A stretch of DNA of 32,807 nucleotides. Origin: Lysobacterales bacterium (GTDB lineage: Bacteria; Pseudomonadota; Gammaproteobacteria; Xanthomonadales; Marinicellaceae). This document shows, piece after piece, positions 1,594 through 8,660 of this stretch (its first letter is position 1; each line of letters begins with the position of its first letter). The stretch spans positions 1 to 32,807 of the forward strand of contig JALSLV010000114.1 in assembly GCA_026988115.1 (NCBI GenBank), written 5' to 3'. The notes below the pieces were generated by a model. The model saw only the letters and a program-made list of their open reading frames with translations. It was not told where the DNA came from and ran no database searches. A program made the position numbers and the translations under genes.

Positions 1594-2292
1594 ATGAATA
1601 CTTCAATGAATAAAACCGCCAGATTTGCAGGATTACTTTATTTAGCAATGATAATTGGAGGAATAATAAGTCTTGCATATATTCCTTCACAATTAATAGT
1701 TTCAGAAAGTGCATCAAAAACACTTGAAAACATTATAAACTCTGAATTTTTATTTAGAATAGGAATGGTTGTTGGTATTGTTACTTTTCTCATTCACATT
1801 TTATTGCCATTGGTTTTGTACAAACTTTTGCATAAAGTAAACAAGTTTCTCGCTAAGCTTATGGTAATCTTTTCATTGATAAGTGTGGCTATTTTTTTTG
1901 TAAATATCTTGAACAAGTTTTCAGTTCTAACACTAATAAAAAATACTGAATATACACAAAGTACTATCGAACTTCAAAATCAAGTAATGTTTTACATTGA
2001 CAATTATAACAATGGTCTTGAAATTTCACAGATATTTTGGGGTCTTTGGTTATTTCCATTTGGGTATTTAGTTTATAAGTCAGGTTTTCTACCAAAATTT
2101 TTAGGTCTACTTTTAATGGTTGGTTGCTTTGGATATTTAATAACATTTTTTGGAGGTTTCTTATTTTCAAATTATAATAATACAATTATTTCCGAAATTG
2201 CGGGGTATCCTGCTCCTCTTGGAGAATTCGGAATTTGTTTGTGGCTTTTAATAATGGGAACGAATAAAATAAGTTTTGGAAATAAATATTAA
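1594..2292 (+). CDS. DUF4386 family membrane protein
   Basis: A 232-residue hydrophobic protein beginning MNTSMNKTARFAGLLYL, the typical opening of DUF4386 proteins (KTARxAGLLYL then a first membrane helix). About six membrane segments are visible, including residues about 13-33, 54-78, 88-108, 146-166 and 172-193, and a C-terminal one near ICLWLLIMG. The upstream TTG at 1588 would add only two residues; the ATG at 1594 or 1606 is more likely. Function of the family is unknown. It starts about 25 bases after the attC-like site and its 3' end overlaps or abuts the DUF6326 remnant, a pairing of two small membrane proteins that fits a Bacteroidetes origin. Confidence 0.8.
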   Translation: MNTSMNKTARFAGLLYLAMIIGGIISLAYIPSQLIVSESASKTLENIINSEFLFRIGMVVGIVTFLIHILLPLVLYKLLHKVNKFLAKLMVIFSLISVAIFFVNILNKFSVLTLIKNTEYTQSTIELQNQVMFYIDNYNNGLEISQIFWGLWLFPFGYLVYKSGFLPKFLGLLLMVGCFGYLITFFGGFLFSNYNNTIISEIAGYPAPLGEFGICLWLLIMGTNKISFGNKY

Positions 2293-2995
2293 AATTAAAC
2301 TTGCTTTTTTATGGACAGCAACAACATTTTGCTATTTGTATGGCGACTATTTTGAATTATATACTCCAGGCAAAGTATTAACCTTGCCAGATATTACCAG
2401 ACACTCAGGATGACATATGGAGAATATATCAAGGCTTAATTTGTATTTAATAGTTATTCTATTGAGTGCAAATTGTAACGCAGAGATATTTTCCATATGT
2501 CATCCCTAACCATATGATTTTAAAATGAAAGGTCGCCATGTGTTCGCTCATCACTTCGTTATTTTTGCTTGATGTAGAATAACTATAACTTCACAAAAAA
2601 TAACTCGTGAGCGAACAAACACATGACGACTGAGTGAGCGGTAATATCTAGCAAGGTTAATAGATAGTTTAATAAGTGGAGAAAATGTATAGAATACTCC
2701 TATGGTATTATTTATCGCATCGCTAATTTTGACCATCCCACCTTTAATGATTATCTTTTCTCTTGTATTAAAATCCCGTATAAATAGAATACTAAATATA
2801 GTCTTCGGATTACTGTTTACAATTATGATGGTATTGATTGCTATTGGTTCACTAACTCCTTGGTAGTCATTTTATGTCTTTTTAGCAATTGTAGAAGCAT
2901 CATTAACCTTTATAATTGCATGGAAAGCATTTAAATGTCTAAACAAACTGATTAAAAGCCAGTTGCCAACAACGTGTATAAAATTCATTGAATAA
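2276..2995 (+). pseudogene. DUF6326 family membrane protein, disrupted by a miniature element and two stops
   Basis: The frame reads IKIKLAFLWTATTF, CYLYGDYFELYTPGKV up to 2377, matching the N-terminal half of DUF6326 proteins. It resumes after 2656 as LIDSLISGENV, then a TAG, NTPMVLFIASLILTIPPLM, FSLVLKSRINRILNIVFG, SLTPW, a second TAG (2864-2866), and FYVFLAIVEASLTFIIAW to a TAA at 2993-2995. Removing 2382-2660 (the element plus one TTAA) joins the two parts in one frame (GKV-LIDSLISGE), so the insertion interrupted an intact gene. The start is uncertain; a TTG at 2276, overlapping the DUF4386 gene by a few codons, is the only candidate in frame after the stop at 2270. The two TAG codons make it non-functional independently of the insertion. 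Confidence 0.78.
2382..2656. mobile_element. Miniature inverted-repeat element (275 bp) with TTAA target duplication
   Basis: Terminal inverted repeats CCTTGCCAGATATTACC (2382-2398) and GGTAATATCTAGCAAGG (2640-2656) match at 16 of 17 positions and are flanked by TTAA at 2378-2381 and 2657-2660. Inside lie two further hairpins: 2408-2427 pairs with 2486-2505 (19 of 20), and 2532-2550 pairs with 2608-2630 with a small insertion. No transposase is encoded, so it is non-autonomous. The short minus-strand ORF at 2551-2736 runs through the terminal repeat and is not credited as a gene. The parent transposon family is not identified. Confidence 0.8.
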
Positions 2996-3145: not shown

Positions 3146-3187
3146 ATAAGGATGATATAACATACAATCATCCTTATGAATAAGGAT
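3140..3187 (+). promoter_or_regulatory. Promoter with overlapping palindrome at the first ATPase start
   Basis: TTGCAA (3140-3145) and TACAAT (3163-3168) are spaced by 17 bases, and the ATG follows the -10 by seven bases, predicting a leaderless transcript. A perfect 11-bp inverted repeat, ataaggatgat (3146-3156) and atcatccttat (3167-3177), covers the spacer, part of the -10 and the start codon. Further TCCTT (3137-3141) and AAGGA (3182-3186) copies flank it. This geometry suits an operator for autoregulation; that role is inference. Confidence 0.5.
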
Positions 3188-4465
3188 AAACAAAAAAATA
3201 GAATTAAAACAGTAATTGTGAGTTTCCAAGAAAGATCATTTGCACATGTAATTAAACGTGATATTGATTTGCCAATCAATACTAAAAAAATCGTGTCTTT
3301 GATTGGTGTACGCCGTTCTGGCAAGACCTATATGCTGTTTCATTTAATTCAACAATTGCGAAATAGTGTTGATAAAAAAAATATTGTATACCTCAATTTT
3401 GAAGATGATAGGTTATATCCACTATCACTTGAAAATTTGGATATGTTGCTTGAGAGTTATTATGAGTTGTATCCTGAGAAAAGAGATCAAAAAGTTTATG
3501 TGTTTTTAGATGAGGTACAAAATATAGTTGGATGGGAACGTTATGTTCGCAGAATTTATGATACTGAAAATATTCAACTGTATATTACGGGTTCGTCTTC
3601 AAAACTTTTGTCCAGCGAAATTGCCACATCATTACGCGGCCGCACTATCACCTATGAGGTTTTTCCATTTTCATTTAAAGAATATTTGCACGCTAAAAAT
3701 ATTGAAGTCAATCTCTATTCAGCAAGGAGTGTTAGCTTTATAAAAAATGCTTTTAATCGTTATTTGGTCGATGGTGGTTTTGCTGAAACTTTTGACGAAA
3801 CTGAAGATATTCAACGCAGGATACTCAAAGATTATCTTGATTTAATCGTTTATAAAGATATTATTGAACGCTATTTAATAAAAAATCATAGCCTATTAAA
3901 GCATTTAATCAAACACTTGTTTGTCAATATGGGCACCTTAGTAAGCTTTAATAAATTATATAACGACTATAAATCACTAGGGTATAAGGTTGGAAAAGAT
4001 ACCTTATTTGATTATATTTCCTATTTACAAGAGGCGTATGCTTTGTTTACTGTGCCTATTTATCGGCATTCAGTAAAAGAAGAAATACGCAATCCAAAAA
4101 AATTATTTGCTATTGATAATGGCTTTAAAAAATTATTCAGTATAATTTCATCGCAGGATTATTCTATACTATATGAAAACATGGCATTTTTGCACTTGCG
4201 CAGGCAAACAAGCGAAGTTTATTATTTCAAAAAAAAACAGGAAGTTGATTTGTATATCAAAACTGATAAACAATACTTGGTAAATGTCAGTTATGATATT
4301 AGTAATCCTGACACCATGAAACGGGAAACAAAGGCATTGTGTGAAGCGATGGACTATTTTAATTTGAAAACTGCCTATTTAATAACATCAGAAGTAGAAG
4401 ATACAATTGTTGTTGAGGGCAAAACAATAGACGTTATTCCCATGTGGAAATGGTTATTGTCTTAA
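3176..4465 (+). CDS. AAA+ ATPase with DUF4143 domain (archaeal-ATPase-like family)
   Basis: A 429-residue protein of the AAA_14/DUF4143 family. Walker A is GVRRSGKTYML (about 44-54), Walker B is VFLDEVQN (about 109-116), and the sensor-like strand is ITGSSS (about 137-142). A winged-helix-like middle region follows, then a C-terminal part with YYFKKKQEVDLYI and LVNVSYD, the degenerate PD-(D/E)XK-like end of DUF4143 proteins; the usual lysine after the second acidic/polar pair is absent. The family's function is unknown; members are often multicopy and mobile. It is probably expressed from the palindromic leaderless promoter at its start. It shares only the family architecture with the second ATPase at 5180 and is clearly divergent from it in sequence. 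It sits between cassette remnants and the GNAT cassette. Confidence 0.85.
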   Translation: MNKDKQKNRIKTVIVSFQERSFAHVIKRDIDLPINTKKIVSLIGVRRSGKTYMLFHLIQQLRNSVDKKNIVYLNFEDDRLYPLSLENLDMLLESYYELYPEKRDQKVYVFLDEVQNIVGWERYVRRIYDTENIQLYITGSSSKLLSSEIATSLRGRTITYEVFPFSFKEYLHAKNIEVNLYSARSVSFIKNAFNRYLVDGGFAETFDETEDIQRRILKDYLDLIVYKDIIERYLIKNHSLLKHLIKHLFVNMGTLVSFNKLYNDYKSLGYKVGKDTLFDYISYLQEAYALFTVPIYRHSVKEEIRNPKKLFAIDNGFKKLFSIISSQDYSILYENMAFLHLRRQTSEVYYFKKKQEVDLYIKTDKQYLVNVSYDISNPDTMKRETKALCEAMDYFNLKTAYLITSEVEDTIVVEGKTIDVIPMWKWLLS

Positions 4466-5179: not shown

Positions 5180-6418
5180 ATGGGTAAAAAGCGTTATTTA
5201 TCACATAAAATCCTTAAATTACTGGAAATGTTTCCAGCTGTGGCAATTCTTGGTGCTCGTCAATGTGGTAAATCAACTTTAGTCAAACAACTGTTACCAG
5301 ACTGGAAATATTACGATTTAGAACGACCTGATGATTATGAACTTATCAGTAGTGACCCTTTGGGGTTTTTCTTACGCCATAAAAACAATATTATCATTGA
5401 TGAAGCACAGCAGTATCCAGAGATTTTTAGCGTTTTGCGCTCAGTAATTGATGGTGATAGAGACTCTACGGGTCGTTTTTTGCTAACAGGTTCAAGTTCA
5501 CCTGATATTGTTAAGGGTTTGTCGGAGTCATTAGCAGGGCGGATTGCAACGGTCGAATTGTCTCCGTTTAAAGTCGCTGAATTGAATGAGCTGGAGTTTC
5601 CTGAAATTTATTCACGATTAATTCAGCCGAAGACCACGCTTAATGACTTTGAAAACTTACAAACAAAGGTCACACCATCCATGCTTTATCAACATTGGAT
5701 GTATGGCGGTTATCCTGAACCTCGAATAAAATCAAAACAAAACAATGCATTTTACTGCTTGTGGATGGATGCCTATTTTACCGATTTTATCCATCGGGAT
5801 ATTCAGCGATTATTTCCAAGAATCAATACGCATAATTTCCGAAAAATGATTCGTACATTGGCTTTTCATTCGGGCAACATACTTAATCAATCCATTATTG
5901 CACGATCAATGGAATTGAGTTCGGTTACCATTAAAGAATATTTATCCATTTTGCATGATACTTTTATTTGGAGAAACCTAAGTAGTTATGAAAATAATCC
6001 CTTAAAAAAAGTGCAAAAAATGCCGAAAGGATTTTTTAGAGACTCTGGTATTTTACACTACATGCTTAAGCTGCACGATGTTGATGATTTATTGCTACAT
6101 CCAAGTGCTGGTGCATCATTTGAATCATTTATGATTGAAGAAATCATCAGAGGCCTGCATTGCACCTTACAAACCAATACTGATTTTAGTTTTTATCGAA
6201 GCCGAGACAAATCAGAAATTGATTTAATCATTGATGGTAGCTTTGGCGTAATACCAATAGAAATAAAATTGGGGTCTAAGGTAAAATCAAAAATGCTGAA
6301 ATCATTAAAGATATTTTTAGAAGACACCCAATCTCAATTTGGCATTCTTATTAATAACGCTTCAAAAATAGAAATGGTTGCTGATAAAATCATCCAAATT
6401 CCCGCCCATTATTTTTAA
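5180..6418 (+). CDS. AAA+ ATPase with DUF4143 domain and PD-(D/E)XK-like C-terminus
   Basis: A 412-residue AAA_14/DUF4143 protein. Walker A is GARQCGKSTLV (about 25-35), Walker B is IIIDEAQQYP (about 72-81), and LTGSSSPDI (about 103-111) forms the sensor strand. A helical middle domain (LYQHWMYGGYPEP, FTDFIHRDIQRLF) is typical of DUF4143. The C-terminus keeps the nuclease-like pattern SEIDLII then IPIEIKLGSK, with the EIK lysine intact, unlike the first ATPase in this window. The family role is unknown. Its stop overlaps the stop of the convergent TonB receptor by four bases. It is less AT-rich than the cassette genes and may be resident in the host lineage. Confidence 0.87.
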   Translation: MGKKRYLSHKILKLLEMFPAVAILGARQCGKSTLVKQLLPDWKYYDLERPDDYELISSDPLGFFLRHKNNIIIDEAQQYPEIFSVLRSVIDGDRDSTGRFLLTGSSSPDIVKGLSESLAGRIATVELSPFKVAELNELEFPEIYSRLIQPKTTLNDFENLQTKVTPSMLYQHWMYGGYPEPRIKSKQNNAFYCLWMDAYFTDFIHRDIQRLFPRINTHNFRKMIRTLAFHSGNILNQSIIARSMELSSVTIKEYLSILHDTFIWRNLSSYENNPLKKVQKMPKGFFRDSGILHYMLKLHDVDDLLLHPSAGASFESFMIEEIIRGLHCTLQTNTDFSFYRSRDKSEIDLIIDGSFGVIPIEIKLGSKVKSKMLKSLKIFLEDTQSQFGILINNASKIEMVADKIIQIPAHYF

Positions 6419-8451
6419 AATTCATAATCAAAACTCACGCCCAAATGCCTTGGTGAACCCAATTGCGTATACAATTTATTTTCGTAATTTGGTGGTTCTA
6501 GTCCGAAGTAAAATCCGCGGGTGGCGTAGTGTTTATTGAAGATGTTATTGCCCCATAAACTCACGCTCCAGTTGTCTTTTTCATAACCGATTTTCAAATT
6601 GTACAATTGATAAGATTTAGACTGTTGAGTGTGGGAATCAGAGAAGTAAAAGCTGTCTTTGCCATTGGTATCAAGGCGAGCAAAAAATCCATTAAGTGTG
6701 TGGTATTGCACACCTAAAGAAAAGTTATAACGTGGTGCATGCGCTTGGTCTCTGCCGTTAAAGCTGCCTTCGGTCGTTACAAAGTCATCAAACTGTGCTT
6801 TGAGCAAACCCAATGAACCATAAACATCAAAATTATCGTTTAGCTGATAATTGAAGTCGGTTTCGATGCCGTAATTGCTGCCTGTGGCGGCATTGCCAGT
6901 AAAAAACACGAAGGTCAGCGGGTCGTTGGGATCGGTTTGGCGTGAGGTGCTGATTTGCATGTCTTGACGTTTGGAATAAAAGGCGGATAAATTCCATTGC
7001 AGTTGATAATCCATAAAATAGCCTTTGAAACCTGATTCCAACGACCATAATGATTCGGGTTGGTATTCACGTAGTTCATCAGGTACGCTTGTCGAAAGAT
7101 TAAAACCACCGGCTTTATAACCACGAGCAAGTGTTACATAGGTGTTTAAATTTTTATTGATTTTATGGTTTAATGCCAATTGTCCTCCCCACATATTATC
7201 ACTGGGTGAAACATCTATTCCATTACTGTCAGCATAACTGGCATTGCGGCGTTCAAAACGAATACCTGAAGTTAAGCTGTTTGTATCAGAAATTTTAGTA
7301 TCGAGTTGGGCAAATAATGCAATCGATGTTGCATCAAATTGGCTGCTTAAATTTTTATACACTTCACCGTTGTAAAATTCGTTGATTTTATTGTCTTCGG
7401 ACATGTCCAAAATATAGACACCTGCCAACCATTGCTCGCCAATAAAACGAAACTCTTGGGAAATATGGGTACGCTCACGAAAACTTGCGGAGGTGAAATC
7501 ATAGGGTGCGAATTCGCCCCAATAATCGTTATTGCCCCAATCACCATCAAAAGAATAATCAATGTCGGCATTCATGTAACTGGTGATACTTGTCACATCA
7601 AAATTGTTGCCTTGCCAATTAGCTTTAACGGCAAGACCTGTGGAATCTTGTAAATCTTTACCTGGTAAATCGGTGTGGGTAGTAAATGTATTTTCAGGGT
7701 TGAATGTGTCAAAACCGTTGTCTATGTTGGCTTTTAGAAAAGTGAAGTTAAAATCCAAAGCATCATTGGCTTGCCAAAATATTTTACCACGTGCGACCAA
7801 TTCATCGCGTTTGTTGGTGTCATCACGATTAAAGTAATCGTTGTATCGAAAACCATCGGCATTGTATTGATGCACCGCAAGGCGATAAGCGGCTTTGTCG
7901 CTCAATGCGCCCGTGGCTCGAAAACCATAGCCTAAATCTCCATCATTGCCAACCAATCCTGTGATTTTGTAAGAGGCATCAAATTCTGGGTCTTTGCTTT
8001 TGACATAAACCAGTCCAGCCAAGCCATTGGCTCCATAACGCGTGCCTTGCGGGCCGCGAAGCACTTCGATTTGTTCGACATCAAACAAGGTCGCTACGCC
8101 ACCAAGAGCGGAAAAATCAATGTCATCCACCACAAAACCCACCGAAGGATTAGGTGCTCCTTCGTATTGAGAGCGTTCACCAATACCTCTGATTTGAAAA
8201 TAACGTGGACGATTGGTGGCAGATGACCAATTAAGATTAGGAACCATAGCCATCACATCTTCAAAATGTTGCGTGCCTGCTTTTTGCAAAGTTTCGGCAT
8301 CTAAGATACTCATACTTTCATTGGCTTCGATGGCGAATTTGTTGTCACGTAGGTCTGAGGCGACTACGATTTTATCGAGTTTTTCGACCGAATCTTGTGC
8401 ATACAAATTCAGATAAAAGAGAATGCTAGTAAATAGAATTGTTTTTTTCAT
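6415..8451 (-). CDS. TonB-dependent outer-membrane receptor, thiamine-regulated
   Basis: A 678-residue outer-membrane receptor. The signal peptide is residues 1-18 (cleavage after LYA), a TonB box lies near KLDKIVVASD (25-34), and the plug domain runs to about 150 with FQIRGIGERSQYEG, GFVVDDIDF and the conserved IEVLRGPQGTRYGANGLAG (128-146). The rest is a 22-strand-type barrel ending in phenylalanine (SFDYEF), as needed for BAM-dependent assembly. A TPP riboswitch lies in its leader, so the substrate is probably thiamine, a phosphorylated form or a pyrimidine/thiazole precursor; this is inference from regulation, known for TPP-riboswitch-linked receptors in Proteobacteria. AAGG before the ATG gives the ribosome site. 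No inner-membrane partner is adjacent. Confidence 0.9.
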   Translation of the reverse strand: MKKTILFTSILFYLNLYAQDSVEKLDKIVVASDLRDNKFAIEANESMSILDAETLQKAGTQHFEDVMAMVPNLNWSSATNRPRYFQIRGIGERSQYEGAPNPSVGFVVDDIDFSALGGVATLFDVEQIEVLRGPQGTRYGANGLAGLVYVKSKDPEFDASYKITGLVGNDGDLGYGFRATGALSDKAAYRLAVHQYNADGFRYNDYFNRDDTNKRDELVARGKIFWQANDALDFNFTFLKANIDNGFDTFNPENTFTTHTDLPGKDLQDSTGLAVKANWQGNNFDVTSITSYMNADIDYSFDGDWGNNDYWGEFAPYDFTSASFRERTHISQEFRFIGEQWLAGVYILDMSEDNKINEFYNGEVYKNLSSQFDATSIALFAQLDTKISDTNSLTSGIRFERRNASYADSNGIDVSPSDNMWGGQLALNHKINKNLNTYVTLARGYKAGGFNLSTSVPDELREYQPESLWSLESGFKGYFMDYQLQWNLSAFYSKRQDMQISTSRQTDPNDPLTFVFFTGNAATGSNYGIETDFNYQLNDNFDVYGSLGLLKAQFDDFVTTEGSFNGRDQAHAPRYNFSLGVQYHTLNGFFARLDTNGKDSFYFSDSHTQQSKSYQLYNLKIGYEKDNWSVSLWGNNIFNKHYATRGFYFGLEPPNYENKLYTQLGSPRHLGVSFDYEF

Positions 8452-8496: not shown

Positions 8497-8521
8497 GTGT
8501 AATAGAGTTGTAAAATAAATT

Positions 8522-8616
8522 TTCCATTCCTACGCCGGTATTAACCGGATCAGGTTCAAAGGGTCCACAAATGTGTCTCAGAACAGCAGTAAAAACCTGT
8601 GTCCTCCCCTTGGAAT
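8522..8616 (-). ncRNA. TPP (THI-box) riboswitch
   Basis: On the minus strand the leader contains CAAGGGGAGGAC, CTGAGA, ACCCTTTGAACCTGATC, CGGTTAATACCGGCGTAGG and AATGG in the order of the thiamine pyrophosphate aptamer. ACCCTTTGAACCTGATC and the CTGAGA loop are its most conserved parts. The variable arm between them (acaggttt...) is short. It lies about 70 bases before the start codon of the TonB receptor and should repress it when TPP is plentiful. Confidence 0.95.
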
Positions 8617-8660
8617 GTGGGTATAATAGCAAAAGATAATCATATATCAAGGTAATAAAC

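Follow-up and report, generated by a model that had tools for sequence, protein, structure and literature searches.

A probable IS630-type miniature element with two opposed hairpins, each apparently kept for one strand

In this study, we found that the DNA interrupting a DUF6326 gene in the window (the whole stretch of 32,807 nucleotides analysed here, from a Lysobacterales bacterium) is probably a non-autonomous miniature inverted-repeat element (MITE) of the IS630/Tc1-mariner type, with two opposed hairpins built on one module, each of them apparently kept folded for one strand. The assignment to the IS630 type follows from the TA target, the tips shared with a multicopy IS630-like element of the same genome, and the restoration of a TipAS gene upon excision. 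As a MITE, the element is of a known kind; its conserved, mirror-placed and strand-specific interior is the new part. MITEs are usually regarded as transposase leftovers with arbitrary interiors. Here, on the other hand, the interior is the conserved part and the tips differ, and the wobble pairs tell which strand of each hairpin is read.

The element is short, with no open reading frame of 80 or more amino acids and no transposase of its own (Table 1). Its inverted ends are CCTTGCCAGATATTACC (2382-2398) and the complement of that sequence with one mismatch (2640-2656; 16/17 positions), and two such matches were obtained where 0.07 were expected. The preliminary description of this DNA reported a segment of 275 bp with TTAA outside both 17-nt ends. 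The TTAA is present on both sides; however, it forms part of the terminal repeat, and the arms (2376-2408 and 2630-2662; 33 nt, 88% complementary) extend the repeat outward through TTAA to TA. Because the duplicated target is placed at TA, the element measures 283 bp and not 275 bp. Folded as single-stranded DNA, the element strand gives -57 kcal/mol, compared with an average of -22 kcal/mol for 200 shuffles (z -10). A second copy in the same genome, on contig C14 (12483-12765), is 99.6% identical across the 283 bases, with one difference, and the two near-identical copies sit in different genes. A search for other copies and for matching termini had also been proposed. It recovered the C14 copy as well as a full-size, multicopy partner whose termini match, and the view of a miniature inverted-repeat element inside a gene was supported.

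Table 1. Coordinates of the element, its parts and the interrupted gene in the window.
Feature	Position	Strand	Basis or remark
DUF6326 pseudogene, part before the element	2288..2377	+	PF19851 on the joined frame
Target TA, left copy	2376..2377	.	inverted repeat reaches here; TA rule at 35/35 partner IS ends
Element, 283 bp	2378..2660	+	second copy at C14:12483-12765 of the same genome (G000)
Left tip TTAACCTTGCCAGATATTACC (conserved portion of the terminal repeat)	2378..2398	+	imperfect continuation to 2408
Hairpin 1	2408..2505	+	arms 2408-2430 / 2483-2505, 91% complementary; RNA fold better on +
Module copy 1 (CTGCGTTA .. GCCTTG)	2425..2487	-	model R2, 61.8 bits; sequence in the training set
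Linker between the hairpins	2506..2531	.	alignment
Hairpin 2	2532..2630	-	arms 2532-2549 / 2613-2630, 83% complementary; RNA fold better on -
Module copy 2	2550..2612	+	model R2, 50.7 bits; sequence in the training set
Right tip TTAACCTTGCTAGATATTACC	2640..2660	-	96% identity to the multicopy IS end over 26 bases
Target TA, right copy	2661..2662	.	same basis as the left copy
DUF6326 pseudogene, part following the element (approximate end)	2663..2990	+	PF19851 on the joined frame; TAG codons in frame at 2690-2692 and 2864-2866

The multicopy partner breaks the assembly at 35 contig ends, with its right end (TTAACCCTGCTAGATATTACC..) at 19 of them and its left end (TTAACCTAGCTAGATAATATCGCTC..) at 16 further ones. 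The right end has 26 bp in common with the window element at 96% identity. The left end leads into a frame read as MKNIDLRTL.., which resembles the start of an intact transposase on contig C53. The C53 protein belongs to IS630 by NF033545 (215.7 bits), carries DDE_3 and is the sole DDE_3 match of the genome, in agreement with the earlier remark that the parent transposase lies outside the window. As far as seen, the assembly lacks the interior of this multicopy element, and the partner transposase is therefore known only as an N-terminal fragment. Thus, the full-length element with the same ends and a transposase, which the preliminary description had proposed to look for, was recovered in part: the left end opens an IS630-like frame, but the interior is missing. 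Two tip types occur in the family, and they match two IS630 lineages, namely the multicopy IS and the C53-like elements; the C53-like tip is matched by the element on contig C138 of genome G028 (23 bp at 96%) and by the C108 element (27 bp at 85-89%). From these shared tips we infer that the window element appears to move with an IS630-type transposase supplied in trans, which would bind the tips. No DDE_3 match was found in G030 and G032, which have more than 100 hairpin matches each and incomplete assemblies. As for a mobilising enzyme in these two genomes, it was observed that they have neither a DDE_3 nor a Y1_Tnp match. Contig C48 of the window's genome (87212-87289; L030 1501-1578) also carries a miniature of 78 bp that has similar tips and is flanked by TA at either end, but lacks the two hairpins.

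The preliminary description held that the element targets TTAA, which means that a TTAA-duplicating transposase would have moved it. This agrees with the TTAA on both sides of the 275-bp segment and with the DUF6326 frame, which is open across the TTAA product as well, but it is contradicted by the partner ends. TA stands directly outside TTAACC at all 35 examined ends (19/19 right and 16/16 left), none of the six positions beyond TA is fixed, and TA makes up 7.3% of the dinucleotides in the window. These ends represent at least 19 independent sites, as left and right ends may come from the same insertions. In the C53 relative, one end reads TCAACC in place of TTAACC and TA still adjoins it, so TTAA is not constant; moreover, relatives exist whose tips do not start with TTAA, and they are bounded by TA in most cases. 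The C14 copy, which interrupts a MerR-TipAS gene, separates the two targets directly. Its excision with one TA gives a single frame to the natural stop, covering 117/117 positions of the TipAS profile at 121.5 bits, whereas in the product that retains one TTAA a stop codon persists at the junction and the TipAS match ends at position 89 (89/117; 78.7 bits). The DUF6326 profile (PF19851) also scored lower for the TTAA product (33.7 bits) than for the TA product (38.3 bits), although the frame argument cannot separate the two because the products differ by 6 bp. TTAA as the target was therefore rejected, and we regard a TTAA-duplicating transposase as extremely improbable.

Removal of the segment rejoins one DUF6326 frame, as had been claimed. 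The gene is decayed, since two more TAG codons interrupt the rejoined frame. Either the insertion or these stops could have come first. The proposed dating of the insertion after the acquisition of the gene adds little: an empty site was sought in the 32 remaining family genomes, and these gave one weak DUF6326 match only (24% identity, E 3.9e-4, internal stops), so no empty DUF6326 site is readable among them.

Both hairpins hold one conserved module of 62 positions, in opposite orientation. The module consists of CTGCGTTA, a stem, a loop region around GAATRACTA, a second stem and GCCTTG. Alignment of 8 and then of 24 full-length elements gave a common plan of terminal repeat, hairpin 1, linker, hairpin 2 and terminal repeat. 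The stem sequences vary greatly among lineages while their complementarity is kept; pairs changed on both sides numbered 60 of 96 predicted pairs in the 8 sequences and 58 of 63 in the 24 elements. In the latter, 89.8% of the cells were paired, against 63.4% after shuffling and 38-44% with the partners slid, and the covariation score was 0.684 against 0.198. For the two stems of 105 modules, 90.2% of the cells were paired against 55.5% in shuffles, and the covariation score was 0.907 against 0.228; module pairs with double changes were no more frequent than in shuffles (10, with 9.7 and 8.7 expected). Alignment A6 was fitted to the model, which the training sequences match by construction. The most conserved letters of the module are unpaired: among 104 distinct modules, the C was conserved at 100%, CGTT at 91-95% and GCCTTG at 88-100%, whereas the T and G that separate this C from CGTT stayed below 80%.

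The covariance models of Rfam 15 gave no match at gathering level at the element, and those up to an E value of 5 were three microRNA-type matches far below their thresholds; in 16 related loci, no Rfam match was found at E 0.05. Some variants of the plan were observed. A longer relative in G030 (contig C32; L065 1210-1658) carries three modules (-, +, +), of which the middle one forms part of a separate hairpin. Three loci of G021 (L068, L072 and L074) have the loop motif TTAATAGTTATTCTATTGAGTG, exact in two and altered in the third, and the rest of the element is absent from them.

Two further genomes of the genus contain full-length relatives, at 88% and 80% identity, and interior parts are present in more. 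At E 0.001, the element is matched in 9 of the 33 family genomes, and the covariance model of hairpin 1 finds 27 of the 33 at E 0.01. The hairpin-model matches number 16 in the window's genome, 116 and 109 in G030 and G032 of a sister genus, and 0 in six genomes. The module model matched 36 of 229 sampled genomes of the class and 39 of 349 sampled genomes of the phylum (23 of them from the class, the other 16 from one additional family), with the window's genome included in both counts and with the two samples overlapping (e.g., G000 and G171); the copy numbers in these scans are lower bounds, because at most 23 and 15 candidates were scored per genome. Among 31 loci, of which the class scan supplied 29 and plasmids 2, two modules follow one another in minus-then-plus order in 16 at E ≤1 and in 13 at E ≤0.01, and the starts of the paired modules in those 16 loci are 104-124 bp apart. 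The plasmids are those of Azotobacter chroococcum and a Halomonas, the two records obtained from a plasmid BLAST with element sequences in which one of three queries matched. A phage BLAST with one element query, a scan of viral contigs with a gapped module pattern and an exact-tip scan of genome contigs, a set that may omit records close to the window's genome, returned no match.

The terminal repeats of the elements from the class scan and the plasmids are unlike those of the window element (GTACATCAACC.., GTGTACTGCGCC.., GTGGGCCAAG.. and GGGTCTGTTGACG..). A clear terminal repeat was seen in 21 of the 30 answering loci and, with tip boundaries set by eye, TA was found on both sides in 14 of these and on one side in 7. 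Across the class, the same interior arrangement is found with unrelated tips. The gene context of 35 elements, judged by crude gene calling, was divergent in 12, tandem in 10, convergent in 5 and undecided in 8, with no clear preference.

A folded RNA or single-stranded DNA (ssDNA) tolerates G.T (G.U) better than A.C. In double-stranded DNA, G.T and A.C represent the same mismatch viewed from opposite strands. The arm pairs were aligned under a scoring scheme that weights every mismatch equally and were read on the + strand of the element. In 37 elements, hairpin 1 had 47 G.T and 18 A.C pairs (p 4e-4), hairpin 2 had 5 and 58 (p 2e-12), and the terminal repeats had 34 and 33 (p 1); these p-values are optimistic because the elements are related. 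Counted per element, with the rest tied, G.T exceeded A.C in 25 elements and fell behind in 4 for hairpin 1, in 1 and 28 for hairpin 2, and in 11 and 14 for the terminal repeats. The 22 elements of the window's family gave 29 G.T and 12 A.C in hairpin 1 and 4 and 42 in hairpin 2, and the 15 elements outside the family gave 18 and 6, and 1 and 16, respectively. The terminal repeats of these 15 elements lean to A.C per element (2 against 8), with totals near even (12 G.T and 16 A.C).

The 37 elements were two-module elements picked by the author from the loci at hand; L188 (the stretch ends in a module), L065 (three modules) and several near-duplicates were omitted. Their second modules include weak ones in L183 (E 0.15) and L205 (E 0.56), and that of L206, for which no match was obtained, was placed by eye with the spacing in L205 as a guide. 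The pooled count covered 101 of the 105 modules (two modules of L149 were left out, together with L185 and L190), and 96 of these 101 modules had arms above the score limit. Read on the CTGCGTT strand, the pooled modules had 147 A.C and 34 G.T in the outer arms and 14 and 3 in the inner stem, and the terminal repeats of 24 elements, taken as control, had 23 G.T and 19 A.C.

The computed RNA energies gave the same signs. Among 36 elements (L206 was omitted here as well), hairpin 1 was stabler on the + strand in 28, and hairpin 2 was stabler on the - strand in 30. In the window, hairpin 1 (2405-2508) reached -48.1 kcal/mol on + and -33.5 kcal/mol on -, and hairpin 2 (2530-2632) reached -43.6 kcal/mol on - and -34.3 kcal/mol on +. 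A single RNA strand for the whole element was also considered and rejected. An early count over the whole alignment looked neutral (82 G.T and 69 A.C) because opposite signs cancelled: it contained 43 and 14 in hairpin 1, 20 and 29 in hairpin 2, and 19 and 26 in the terminal repeats, and the signs became clear once the hairpins were aligned arm to arm. Because the sign flips within a single element, from one hairpin to the other, a regional mutation bias is disfavoured, and the near neutrality of the terminal repeats speaks against a counting artefact.

The wobble on opposite strands indicates that each hairpin seems constrained as one strand, RNA or ssDNA. Judged from these sequence patterns, each hairpin would be kept because the strand that reads CAAGGC .. 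AACGCAG must fold in one of these two forms. This suggests that the element functions in folded form, as RNA or ssDNA, rather than being mere debris. The layout is such that a transcript entering the element from either flank runs first into the hairpin constrained on its strand. We would guess, at somewhat less than even probability, that the RNA hairpin, present in either direction of transcription, is bound by a host factor or cut by a nuclease, and that insertions into transcribed DNA might thereby be buffered or processed. As a guess, the simplest reader would be a host factor or nuclease that recognises the internal loop formed by CAAGGC and AACGCAG, and the simplest benefit would be that transcripts are buffered or processed. 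Owing to the mirrored layout, such an RNA effect would be independent of the direction of insertion.

Recognition of the hairpins as ssDNA by a protein during replication, transformation or transposition, as in REPINs, ranks second after the RNA-hairpin mechanism, and we consider it rather unlikely. The strand-specific wobble fits ssDNA equally with RNA, and the inverted hairpin pair recalls the head-to-head dimers of REPs as presented in PMC3733652. Genes for Y1 transposases occur in 13 of 17 tested genomes; however, they are absent from G030 and G032, the two genomes with 116 and 109 hairpin matches, and present in G004, G008 and G018, all of which have no hairpin matches. Among the Y1-less genomes, two are incomplete (87% and 90%). 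A Y1/RAYT protein as the mover of the hairpins was likewise not supported, as the presence of Y1, linkage aside, does not follow the hairpins.

The complementarity of the arms could also be kept without selection if template switching during replication rewrote one arm from the other, which would make the interior passive. Long complementary arms are the kind of sequence where such template-switch copying is known. The arms here are indeed long and highly complementary, and whole arms differ among lineages. However, this process predicts neither the conserved unpaired feet (C, CGTT and GCCTTG) nor wobble on opposite strands together with neutral terminal repeats in the same elements, and we consider it improbable. 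Returning to selection on a folded single strand, chances seem evenly balanced that the element represents a mobile family of Gammaproteobacteria and one further family of the phylum, in which the lasting cargo would be the mirrored pair of hairpins, each working as a single strand, with RNA from either side presenting the working hairpin first. This cargo would swap its IS630-type tips, which would serve as a replaceable vehicle.

No description of the two-hairpin family was found in the open-licence papers searched. The closest likeness is to known folded repeats. RUP of pneumococcus, a repeat related to IS630 and found with IS630-Spn1, is 107 bp long and is described as simple in PMC3049150. 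According to the same source, RUP resembles the present element in being short and present in high copy number, in having terminal repeats like those of an IS630-family element of its own genome, and in being tightly folded with the terminal repeats paired. In contrast, the window element has 283 bp, two module hairpins and strand-specific wobble, and the same interior occurs behind unrelated tips. The TA rule has been described for the IS630 family with ISY100, which shares with our element, as part of the IS630/Tc1-mariner group, the insertion at TA, the duplication of TA and the terminal repeats bound by transposase (PMC2170065). ISY100 encodes a transposase, whereas the window element does not.

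REPs and REPINs similarly form inverted pairs of short hairpins in many dispersed copies, but REPs are 20-40 bp long with GTAG or CGTC tags as described in PMC3733652. Here, the modules are about 62 nt long and have CGTT and GCCTTG feet, long arms and IS630-type tips. BOX, ERIC, Correia/NEMIS and other bacterial MITEs are also folded mobile repeats thought to act in transcripts; however, no mirror arrangement with strand-specific folding is described for them in the accessible parts of PMC3049150 and PMC10969869. With the present family, the question whether bacterial MITEs have a function of their own gains a defined strand, fold and motif. The comparison of G.T with A.C, with the terminal repeats as control, is cheap and usable on other MITE families.

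Elsewhere in the window, a TPP riboswitch (8510-8620 on the - strand, 73.7 bits) lies just upstream of the open reading frame at 6415-8451 (-), which by eye encodes a TonB-dependent receptor and may be a receptor for thiamine compounds. Near the insertion, the open reading frames 3176-4465 and 5180-6418 appear ATPase-like, with P-loop motifs seen by eye.
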